Positions 2,577 through 21,198 of a stretch of DNA of 26,314 nt are shown in pieces. How positions within the stretch are numbered: the first letter of the stretch is position 1; every line of letters begins with the position of its first letter. Made by a program: the position numbers and the translations under genes. The stretch comes from a virus. The DNA is taken from positions 1 through 26,314 of IMG/VR virus record IMGVR_UViG_3300020411_000151, one strand, 5' to 3'. Under the pieces are notes generated by a model that saw only the letters and a program-made list of their open reading frames with translations, did not search any database and was not told the DNA's origin.

Positions 2577-3017
2577 TCAAGCTAATGACCAATCTTTTCT
2601 GGCATGGTGATCTGGAACGATTTTACCCAACTCAATGGTAAGTAAACCGTCCTCAAATTTTACATTACGAACTTCTGTATCATCAGTAAGAGTCCACTGT
2701 CTAGTGAAAGATCTCTGAGCAAGACCCTGATGGGTGTACTCTACCTCTTCCTTAGATTCTTTCTTACCTTCTACAACCAACTTACCATATTCGGTAAAAA
2801 CGTTTACTTCGTCTTTCTTAAACCCTGCTAGTGCAATTTCCAAACGTGACTCCACGTTATTAATAGTTACCAAATTATATGGAGGATAGTTGCTTGCAGG
2901 TATATCAATATTAAAGAAACGATCAAAGTACTGATCATTGATTCCAAGAGAATGCTTAGTGATCTTATCAAATAGTTCTGGAAGATCAGACGCACGATAG
3001 CGTGTTAGGTTAGTCAT
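2577..3017 (-). CDS. hsp20: Hsp20 / small heat-shock protein (alpha-crystallin family)
   Basis: 146 residues. ATP-independent holdase chaperone of the IbpA/Hsp17 type, known in nearly all cyanomyoviruses. The N-terminal arm (FDKITKHSLGINDQYFDRFF, then NYPPYNL) resembles bacterial IbpA; the alpha-crystallin domain runs from about residue 45 to 135, with LEIALAGFKKDEV, LVVEGKK, GLAQRSFTRQWTL and NVKFEDGLLTIEL as its conserved strands. The C-terminal IxI anchor is not canonical (KIVPDHH). The start at 3017 has AAGGAG 7 bases upstream. The gene has its own early promoter at 3142-3169 and a long structured leader that may be thermosensitive. It likely protects phage or host photosynthetic proteins during infection. 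Confidence 0.95.
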   Translation of the reverse strand: MTNLTRYRASDLPELFDKITKHSLGINDQYFDRFFNIDIPASNYPPYNLVTINNVESRLEIALAGFKKDEVNVFTEYGKLVVEGKKESKEEVEYTHQGLAQRSFTRQWTLTDDTEVRNVKFEDGLLTIELGKIVPDHHARKDWSLA

Positions 3018-3131
3018 AATAGTCTCCTTATTAAGCGAGTTTAAATGGTGTACCCATAGTGGCGTACATGACTATTTAATCACATTTAGTGTGAAAATGT
3101 TAGCGTTTATACCGTAATATTTAATACGGTT
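3018..3131 (-). promoter_or_regulatory. Structured hsp20 5' leader, candidate ROSE-like RNA thermometer
   Basis: With a start predicted near 3135, the hsp20 leader is about 118 bases and contains four successive hairpins on the minus strand: 3130-3111 (ACCGTA/TACGGT), 3093-3081 (CACA/TGTG), 3068-3049 (TGTAC-G-CCA / TGG-GTACA, one bulged G) and 3039-3024. The last pairs CTC-G-CTT with AAGGAG across an AAT loop, covering the Shine-Dalgarno sequence and leaving one bulged G. ROSE thermometers of heat-shock genes have several hairpins, the last pairing a U(U/C)GCU box with the Shine-Dalgarno sequence; UCGCU is present here. The structure is seen; temperature sensing is inference. Confidence 0.55.
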
Positions 3132-3141
3132 TTCTAGAAGA

Positions 3142-3169
3142 ATTATAGGTATAAATAGCCTTAGGTCAA
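3142..3169 (-). promoter_or_regulatory. Sigma-70 early promoter of hsp20
   Basis: Reading leftward, TTGACC (3169-3164) is separated by 16 bases from a perfect TATAAT (3147-3142). Five of six and six of six consensus matches make this a strong host-type promoter. It overlaps, on the other strand, the late promoter at 3150-3157. Confidence 0.8.
3150..3157 (+). promoter_or_regulatory. T4-type late promoter TATAAATA of the plus-strand island
   Basis: An exact TATAAATA octamer ends 25 bases before the ATG at 3183 and points at the only plus-strand gene group in the window. It sits inside the spacer of the leftward hsp20 early promoter. Confidence 0.85.
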
Positions 3170-3182
3170 CCAATGTAAAGAA

Positions 3183-3683
3183 ATGAAAAGATTCATTCCC
3201 TTTATAATGCTTGCTGGTATTGGTGTACTAGCAAACCCTGTGAGAGCTGACATTACTACTAAATTTTCCTCCAGTGTGCAACTGAGTGTAGGAGGAGCTT
3301 CAACTCAGGCTGAAAGGATAGGATCTTCGTTCAGTATTTCTGGTAGTAATATTGATACAACTGATGGTACAACGGCTGGGACAGTCAGTGCAGGTACGAT
3401 CACTTCAGGAGTTTATAGTCCTGGAACAATTGCAGCAACCCAAGACACAGCAGGTGCAGCTTTCAGCTTTAGCCAGTCATACACTCAAGCTGATGCCTTG
3501 CCTACCAGTGCAGTAACTGTTGGAGCATCACAAAACTTCGGTGACATTTATAGTGTTTCTGGTGGAACTACTGGTGACCTTGCTGGTCAAGTAACTAGTG
3601 CTCACACTTTTGCTAGTGTAGATGCTGGTGGAGCAAATACTGCTGTAACATCTCAGTTCGTATCTGAAGTAACTGTACGATAG
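3183..3683 (+). CDS. Exported Ser/Thr/Gly/Ala-rich protein, plus-strand island gene 1
   Basis: 166 residues. The N-terminus is a standard signal peptide (MKRF, hydrophobic IPFIMLAGIGVLA, cleavage at VRA-D). The mature part is low in charge and rich in Ser, Thr, Gly and Ala (SSSVQLSVGGA, SSFSISGSNI, GAAFSFSQSYTQAD, VTSAHTFASV), suggesting an extended beta-structure. It shares two motifs with the next gene: (F/Y)S(I/V)SG.NI and GAAF....(S/T)Y. No enzyme motif is seen. It lies just behind a late promoter, so it is probably made late and exported by the host Sec system, or is a virion decoration whose leader is retained. Function unknown. The Shine-Dalgarno sequence is poor. Confidence 0.82.
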   Translation: MKRFIPFIMLAGIGVLANPVRADITTKFSSSVQLSVGGASTQAERIGSSFSISGSNIDTTDGTTAGTVSAGTITSGVYSPGTIAATQDTAGAAFSFSQSYTQADALPTSAVTVGASQNFGDIYSVSGGTTGDLAGQVTSAHTFASVDAGGANTAVTSQFVSEVTVR

Positions 3684-19694: not shown

Positions 19695-20716
19695 GCTTCT
19701 ACATACAAAGATTTCATAATGGACTTAATGTTTTCCTTATTTTGTTTCATTTCCATCTCATCTATGTAGGACTCTAGCAGGGTTAAAGTGTCTTCGGTCT
19801 CTACTACTTCTAGTTGTTTTTCTAGAACAGTACCGAGATCCTCAATGATCTTTAAGTCTGCTACTTCGCTCTCTTGTAGAGCACGGACAGTTTTATCAAA
19901 ATCAATTTGATCTGACTTGTTCTCTACTATTAGTTTGACATAAGTGCCTTTAATAGTAGCAGGGTCAGGTAAGTCACACCCATTATTATAATAGATTTTG
20001 TGGAACATGTCAAATGGATTTCTGTAGAACGTAGTCTTCAGAGTATCTGTATCAAACATATGGAACCCACGTTTACAACCATAATCATTCCAGTACAACT
20101 GATATGGATTACCTAGATATACAATATTATCTTGTCTAGACTTCATATGATAGTGTCCTGTAAACACTCTTTCAAATTTTAAAAAGGGATCTCTATCAAC
20201 CCCAAAGGTCATGACAGCACCTGGATGAGCCTCAAAACCATTAAGTTCAAGATGGCCAAAACAGCACCGAGCAGTAGTCTCATTGATTTCTTTGTATATG
20301 ACATCTCTGTTGTCATCACATATCCAAGGTATAAAGAGAATATCAGTACCGTCAAAGTTAATGGTAGTTGGAGATTCAATGATATTGATGTTCTCATACT
20401 CTCCCAATAATTCTCGTATAGCATTTACTCTAAGTGTATTCTTGTAATAGATATCATGATTACCAATCAGAGTAGTCATTTGTACACCCATCTTTCTAAG
20501 TGGGTCAAACCACATCTCTCTAGCAGCATCTAAAGATAGGAAATTAATACTCTTTCTCTTGTCAAAGGTATCACCTAAGTTGATAATAGTATCTACTTTA
20601 TGTGCTTTAATAAAAGGTATGACTATTTCGCCATAGAACTTTTTGTACATATTAATGTACGCAACATTATCATTACGAACACCAAAGTGTTGATCAGTTA
20701 TGAGTAAAATTTTCAC
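19682..20716 (-). CDS. 47: Recombination endonuclease subunit gp47 (Mre11-like phosphoesterase)
   Basis: 344 residues (T4: 339). Calcineurin-type nuclease acting with gp46. Metal-binding motifs in order: TDQHFG at 7-12, NLGDTFD near 48, LIGNHDIYY near 90, CFGHLELNGFE near 155 and FTGHYHMKS near 188, then YLGNPYQLYWNDYG. The start is GTG, overlapping the gp55 stop as GTGA; ATG is not available nearby. Firm call. Confidence 0.97.
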   Translation of the reverse strand: MKILLITDQHFGVRNDNVAYINMYKKFYGEIVIPFIKAHKVDTIINLGDTFDKRKSINFLSLDAAREMWFDPLRKMGVQMTTLIGNHDIYYKNTLRVNAIRELLGEYENINIIESPTTINFDGTDILFIPWICDDNRDVIYKEINETTARCCFGHLELNGFEAHPGAVMTFGVDRDPFLKFERVFTGHYHMKSRQDNIVYLGNPYQLYWNDYGCKRGFHMFDTDTLKTTFYRNPFDMFHKIYYNNGCDLPDPATIKGTYVKLIVENKSDQIDFDKTVRALQESEVADLKIIEDLGTVLEKQLEVVETEDTLTLLESYIDEMEMKQNKENIKSIMKSLYVEACSY

Positions 20717-21198
20717 TTATTTCTTTGGGTAGTTTCTATACGTTGTTTGATCTGATTCATCTCTGCCCCACCATTTCCATCTACACTGAATACTTCTTGA
20801 TAACCTGACTTCTCTATAATCTTATCTCTGATTTCCATTTGTCTTTTCTCTTTAGCAATACGTCTAAGGAAAGCAAAGTAAACTATCTGTGTGAAATAAG
20901 CAAATGGATTTTTAGATTTAGCAGGGTCAAAGTTATCTATGTACTGAATACAATTCTCTACACCATCGCATATCATATCATCCTTATACATGTAGTTGAT
21001 GAAGTTAGGTCTATACGATAAATGAGTAGCAATTTTTAAAAAGCAACTACCGATATAATTATTAACTCTTGGTTTAGGTTTCCCCTCTCGTTCATTTCTT
21101 GCAATTTTGGCACGATACTTTTCCAGCTCTGCTAAGAACTTTTTGTTATCTAGATAGTGCTCTTTTTTCCTAGCTGGCATCTTAGGTTTAGTATACAT
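20713..21198 (-). CDS. 55: Late-transcription sigma factor gp55
   Basis: 161 residues (T4: 185). Directs host RNA polymerase to late promoters such as TATAAATA. The region from about residue 45 (NNYIGSCFLKIATHLSYRPNFINYMYKDDMICDGVENCIQYIDNFDP) and KNPFAYFTQIVYFAFLRRIAKEKRQ is the typical gp55 sigma region 2-like core. An N-terminal basic segment (KPKMPARKKEHYLDNKKF) precedes it. It is driven by a perfect consensus sigma-70 promoter at 21222-21250, as expected for an early or middle regulator. No gp33 is seen in this window. Confidence 0.94.
   Translation of the reverse strand: MYTKPKMPARKKEHYLDNKKFLAELEKYRAKIARNEREGKPKPRVNNYIGSCFLKIATHLSYRPNFINYMYKDDMICDGVENCIQYIDNFDPAKSKNPFAYFTQIVYFAFLRRIAKEKRQMEIRDKIIEKSGYQEVFSVDGNGGAEMNQIKQRIETTQRNK

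Follow-up and report, generated by a model that had tools for sequence, protein, structure and literature searches.

A two-hairpin, ROSE-like leader and likely RNA thermometer before hsp20 of T4-like cyanophages

The window analysed here, the whole of a 26,314-base IMG/VR virus record (IMGVR_UViG_3300020411_000151), encodes a small heat-shock protein gene, hsp20, whose ATG lies at position 3017 of the minus strand and whose leader contains a short two-hairpin element resembling the ROSE class of RNA thermometers (Table 1). The window also encodes a gp55-family late sigma factor, a clamp loader, a sliding clamp, SbcC/SbcD-like endonuclease subunits, a DNA helicase, a CobS-like protein and a tail tube protein, a gene content that identifies it as a T4-like phage. 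Synechococcus, Cyanophage or Prochlorococcus names are carried by 463 of the 494 phage records among the hsp20 relatives. In marine T4-like cyanophages hsp20 is among the 25 core genes (PMC3037559); no account of its regulation in cyanophages was found in the open-licence literature searched.

A first-pass annotation of the window had described the last hairpin of the leader as CUC-G-CUU paired with AAGGAG around one bulged G, and the hairpin before it as an 8-bp stem with a single bulged G; both were found exactly there. The string CTCGCTTAATAAGGAG (3039-3024, minus strand) is the sole match to CTCGCTN{2,8}AAGGAG in the 26 kb, and chance occurrence was rejected after 100 shuffles gave no match. 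Within CUCGCUU, the motif UCGCU pairs imperfectly with the Shine-Dalgarno (SD) sequence AAGGAG, a placement confirmed in 70 leaders. The leader plus the start of the gene (148 nt) has a folding energy of -29.5 kcal/mol (z = -2.46).

Table 1. Features of the hsp20 leader and of related loci in the window
Feature	Position	Strand	Remarks
hsp20, IbpA-type small heat-shock protein	2577..3017	-	146 aa; NCBIfam IbpA 1.8e-21; phrog_432 Hsp20
Rfam ROSE_3 (RF02523), full-length match	3012..3068	-	17.7 bits, below gathering score 43
Complete two-hairpin element	3020..3070	-	covariance model R1, 33.1 bits, E 2e-6
SD AAGGAG	3024..3029	-	
Hairpin II, thermosensor candidate	3024..3039	-	CUC-G-CUU / AAGGAG; AAU loop; bulged G at 3036
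Anti-SD CUCGCUU	3033..3039	-	includes ROSE motif U(U/C)GCU
Single-stranded spacer	3040..3048	-	separates hairpins I and II
Hairpin I	3049..3068	-	8 bp; single bulged G at 3063
T4-type late promoter TTAAATAG	3072..3079	-	directly before hairpin I
Small upstream hairpin TCACA..TGTGA	3080..3094	-	absent from relatives, including L001 and L002
Upstream inverted repeat ACCGTA..TACGGT	3111..3130	-	arms only in L001 and L002; outside conserved element
Sigma-70-like TTGACC-16-TATAAT	3142..3169	-	
Perfect T4-type late promoter TATAAATAG	3150..3158	+	serves divergent open reading frame at 3183
Late sigma factor, gp55 family	20713..21198	-	phrog_234 1.5e-69

For comparison, 80 viral loci with hsp20 and 29 phage records were fetched. 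Nearly all Kyanoviridae that were read share one leader order: T4-type late promoter, a few nucleotides, hairpin I, spacer, hairpin II and ATG. Hairpin I takes the form xxx-G-CC-loop-GG-xxx, with a loop that in relatives is often GNRA or UUCG, and is followed after a spacer of about 7-13 nt by CTCGCTT-loop-AAGGAG. A covariance model built on 17 leaders (R1) recovered 72 leaders, 70 of them distinct. Over these 70, standard pairs fill 98.7% of the stem cells, and changes on both sides occur in 7 of 13 pairs (88 cells); these counts are biased towards the structure, since the alignment was fitted to it. The covariation score is 0.335 versus 0.119 in shuffles, none of 500 reaching the observed value, and at most 0.092 in slid controls; sliding the partner by 1-3 columns lowers pairing to 41-58%. 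MAFFT alignments A1 and A2 were poor in hairpin I, so that anchored and model-based alignments were used instead, and a MAFFT alignment of 17 anchored sequences left the picture for helix 1 unchanged.

All 70 distinct leaders retain both bulged Gs. An unpaired G that is invariant while its neighbours covary suggests that the bulge itself is functional, which is a hallmark of ROSE elements. Helix 2 varies less than helix 1, as would be expected with the ribosome site as one of its strands. Nevertheless, compensated changes occur within the SD stem itself: GUCGCUU/AAGGAC in S-CAM4, AUCGCUU/AAGGAU in Pelagibacter phage HTVC104P, CCACGCUU/AAGGUGG (CCAC/GUGG) in S-TIM66, CUCGCUA/UAGGAG (CUA/UAG) in P-HM2 and MED4-213, and, in the upper half, CUCGCUC/GAGGAG (CUC/GAG) in L046. 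The CUCGCUU/AAGGAG pairing, whose fate in related phages the first-pass annotation had named as decisive, is therefore conserved with compensation. The anatomy does match that of bacterial ibpA leaders, including one from an ocean gammaproteobacterial metagenome-assembled genome (MAG; L125), as would be expected of a passive relic captured with the gene and free of selection in the phage; however, such extensive compensatory change while protein identity drops to 36-45% makes a relic highly improbable. Taken from sequence comparison, these patterns almost certainly reflect a selected, ROSE-like RNA structure covering the ribosome site.

Across 23 public phage records (4.31 Mb), all 17 R1 matches with E<0.01 are hsp20 leaders. 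Two weak extra matches, in ACG-2014g (E 0.04) and ACG-2014d (E 0.14), lie inside apparent coding sequence and were rejected as elements on other genes. An Hsp20-like frame lies downstream in 62 of 80 viral contigs with a match to ACTCGCTTN{2,6}AAGGAG. The element also occurs in S-PM2, OM43 phage Melnitz and the pelagiphages HTVC008M and HTVC104P, and in a looser version in HTVC115P and Pseudomonas phage PA5oct; two Vibrio phages that encode Hsp20 lack it. R1 misses bacterial ibpA leaders as well as those of HTVC104P, S-TIM66 and DSL-LC02; the last three were assessed by visual inspection and folding. Judged from the leaders compared, the element is present throughout the sampled marine T4-like cyanophages (Kyanoviridae) and in some pelagiphages, and is kept by selection.

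Several side observations concern this survey. In the hsp20 leader of DSL-LC02 (L092), the SD region is still covered by a hairpin, but the register differs (UUAGAU..AUCUAA) and the usual anti-SD is missing. A CTCGCTT..AAGGAG hairpin without a clear hairpin I stands, in viral contigs, before a peroxiredoxin-like frame (L146), a phasin-like frame (L165, L200) and a frame of unknown kind (L193). Several cyanophages (L022, L046, L003, L083) have the Rfam manA RNA (RF01745) no more than about 1 kb away from hsp20. A scan of bacterial genome contigs gave five loci, three of which (L106, L107, L109) seem to be hsp20 contigs of cyanophages that were assigned to bacterial MAGs (Formosa, Actinomycetota, Saprospiraceae).

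In S-PM2 the conserved element coincides with a site proposed at the level of DNA. Table 2 of PMC10976474 lists for S-PM2d hsp20 a putative Pho box, ATTCAAACTCGCTTAAATA, that would be bound by host PhoB, but the same study found neither PhoB binding nor a phosphate response for hsp20, and the string is the spacer plus the anti-SD of hairpin II (L130, 301-326). A PhoB site is thus exceedingly unlikely, and the element accounts for this published false Pho box.

The position of the promoter defines the extent of the leader. Of 65 related leaders, 63 have a late-promoter core in the same position ahead of hairpin I, versus 6% by chance (random places). Because the late promoter lies directly before hairpin I, the hsp20 mRNA probably starts near 3067, which would place hairpin I at its 5' end and leave out an upstream arm whose pairing with the start codon is predicted when the longer leader is folded. 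The first-pass annotation had instead proposed a leader of about 118 bases with four hairpins, downstream of a sigma-70 promoter. The sigma-70-like box is indeed present in the window, but its -10 element is degraded to TATAGA in the two closest relatives (L001 and L002; 89% protein identity), and it was rejected as the conserved main promoter. Likewise, all four hairpins can be found in the window, but the two upstream ones are not conserved, the other relatives being without the stretch that holds them, and a four-hairpin leader was rejected as the conserved unit. With the upstream hairpins and sigma-70 promoter not conserved and the late promoter conserved, the regulatory unit is about 50 nt rather than 118. 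The late promoter of the divergent open reading frame at 3183 (phrog_564, function not known) overlaps the minus-strand sigma-70-like box.

A hairpin at the very 5' end of a late mRNA could also be a static element, hairpin I stabilising the transcript, as 5' hairpins may do (discussed in PMC3669281), and hairpin II setting a low, temperature-independent level of translation. The modest melting predicted for the leader would suit such a role. However, it leaves unexplained both why none of the 70 leaders has lost the unpaired G of U(U/C)GCU and why the element is confined to hsp20 in the 23 phage records, and is considered improbable.

The leaders show the features by which ROSE elements are recognised in the literature, namely U(U/C)GCU on the SD, a bulged G in the anti-SD strand, a set of two to four hairpins (two here) with the SD in the 3'-most, and a location in the 5' untranslated region of a small heat-shock protein gene. 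A fourU element was rejected, since the anti-SD is CUCGCUU, with no UUUU on the SD. Among 4227 Rfam families searched against positions 2950-3300, the best was ROSE_3, whose two-hairpin bulged-G consensus aligned with the phage leader over its full length (E 0.25), and no family other than ROSE_3 matched the hsp20 leaders of MED4-213, S-SKS1 and C48C1. The comparison with Rfam suggested by the first-pass annotation thus returned a ROSE model as the closest family, but at scores of 17.7-29.2 bits, below the cut-off of 43, and no ROSE model matched at gathering score in the window or in 20 related loci. The label ROSE-like is well supported; the thermometer part of it we infer.

With ROSE_2 (RF01832), the E. 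coli K-12 ibpA control leader reaches 100 bits. It has the same two hairpins and bulged Gs as the phage, CUC-G-CUG/CAGGAG preceded by GACCU-G-UCCA..UGGA-AGGUC (L127), with an identical CUC-G-CU/AGGAG core; it is longer, however, and has further hairpins, whereas the phage has the last two alone. In anatomy the phage element is closest to the short two-hairpin type of Pseudomonas ibpA. The proven Pseudomonas leaders (61-62 nt; Krajewski 2013, PMC3669281) likewise have a stable first hairpin, the SD in the second, a U(U/C)GCU anti-SD and an IbpA-type small heat-shock gene, and at about 60 nt their length is near the 50 nt or so of the phage leader counted from the putative late start. The phage element differs in being viral, in having a T4-type late promoter in place of a heat-shock promoter, and in its weaker SD hairpin, with a median energy over 70 relatives of -1.1 kcal/mol at 37 C versus -4.1 to -7.6 kcal/mol in Pseudomonas (PMC3669281).

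Leaders of gammaproteobacterial IbpA genes contain the U(U/C)GCU motif and, in some cases, a first hairpin with a bulged G. An ocean MAG (G001), one genome among 75 of one class, has a ROSE_3 match directly before an IbpA-type gene. In a SAR202 MAG (L108, 1466-1497), the SD of an IbpA-like gene is immediately preceded by a bulged-G hairpin I, and hairpin II is missing. In the Campylobacter phage A11a record MG065691 (L100), the matched stretch is identical to the E. coli ibpA leader wherever the two were compared by eye; this unverified record seems to contain E. coli chromosomal DNA. Among cyanobacteria, one Anabaena small heat-shock leader has been called ROSE-like (PMC4166951), and the Synechocystis hsp17 thermometer consists of one hairpin containing a 1x3 internal loop (PMC4477652), unlike the two-hairpin phage leader.

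Folding calculations predict that the SD opens in part as the leader warms. Hairpin II of the window has a predicted energy of -3.1 kcal/mol at 20 C, -1.1 at 37 C and -0.5 at 42 C, with a two-state melting temperature of 47 C. In a model of the transcript from 3069, the SD is unpaired in 9-16% of cases at 15-30 C and in 25% at 42 C; a like calculation for E. coli ibpA gives 11% at 15 C, rising to 32% at 42 C. The ribosome site is therefore predicted to be closed at growth temperature, a point on which the first-pass annotation had made its proposal depend. The fully open fraction rises more steeply from 20 to 42 C in hsp20 leaders than in 17 control genes (about 56-fold versus 11-fold). As modelled, the phage leader behaves like the proven E. 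coli thermometer, a likeness that neither proves nor disproves thermosensing.

Several observations weigh against thermosensing or against placing the element in ROSE. The opening of the SD predicted at 42 C is modest, and the fully open fraction itself does not differ significantly between hsp20 leaders and the 17 control genes at 20 or 42 C. The Pseudomonas counterparts of hairpin II are stronger, although a weak hairpin could suit hosts of cooler water. No leader reaches the Rfam gathering score, the best relative having 29.2 bits with ROSE_3. Finally, sea temperature is nearly constant within one infection, so that the benefit of sensing it is not obvious. By analogy with the bacterial elements, it is nonetheless likely that the leader senses temperature, alone or jointly with self-repression by Hsp20.

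Self-repression is suggested by the protein. The best NCBIfam match of the phage Hsp20 is IbpA, below the equivalog cut-off; the Hsp20 of phage S-ShM2 has already been purified (PMC5028025). In E. coli, IbpA acts through its 5' untranslated region to repress its own translation; R93 and an aromatic residue at position 34 are needed for this, and IbpB is inactive (PMC10474464). In an alignment with E. coli IbpA, R102 and Y44 of the window Hsp20 fall on R93 and Y34. Among 62 distinct phage proteins, the R93 column has Arg in 60 and Lys in two (PA5oct and C48C1), and every one of the 62 has Tyr or Phe in the Y34 column; in E. coli IbpB the residue aligned with R93 is Gln. Since the Arg and Tyr of IbpA self-repression are kept, repression of its own leader would be a serious added or alternative function of the phage protein.

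The switch might even be controlled chiefly by protein, with Hsp20 binding its own two bulged-G hairpins to repress translation, aggregated or unassembled protein titrating it away, and temperature being secondary. Besides the E. coli precedent (PMC10474464) and the conserved residues, an unpaired G is conserved in hairpin I, away from the SD, which is more readily explained by a binding site than by a pure thermometer. However, the structure of the chaperone may be what preserves the Arg and Tyr, and both modes coexist on one bacterial leader, so that thermosensing need not be excluded; a chiefly protein-controlled switch is regarded as somewhat unlikely.

The preferred reading, in which we have fair though not full confidence, is that hsp20 mRNA of T4-like cyanophages begins with a short two-hairpin, ROSE-like thermosensing element under a late promoter. 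The mRNA would be made late in infection from the T4-type promoter, hairpin II would keep ribosomes largely off at normal temperature, and warming would melt this weak hairpin so that Hsp20 is made on demand. Hsp20 may in addition bind and repress its own leader until unfolded protein draws it away, as with E. coli IbpA. The phage has its own late promoter where bacteria have a heat-shock promoter, but would retain the translational switch. More tentatively, essentially all T4-like marine cyanophages and some pelagiphages might possess a ROSE-type hsp20 switch that joins temperature and self-repression into an unfolded-protein sensor, forming a late-promoter-driven, virus-borne proteostasis circuit that acts while virions assemble.

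The ROSE class is known; what is new is its presence in viruses, under a late promoter and throughout the sampled marine T4-like cyanophages. A search of the open-licence literature found no paper joining RNA thermometers with cyanophage hsp20. The phage thermometers counted in a 2024 paper are only those of lambda cIII, SPbeta blyA and a gut phage sigma-70 gene (PMC11182007); these temperature-responsive mRNA leaders (blyA being a fourU, the sigma-70 gene from a gut Caudoviricetes) differ from the present element in that none is described as ROSE type or as heat-shock control (PMC11182007, PMC10586365, PMC4166951). As far as that literature shows, no ROSE-type element has been described in a virus before. 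The viruses of cyanobacteria that carry it are very abundant, and a conserved RNA switch before hsp20 offers a directly testable account of chaperone timing. Such a switch would link the outcome of infection to ocean temperature or to protein-folding stress in virion assembly.
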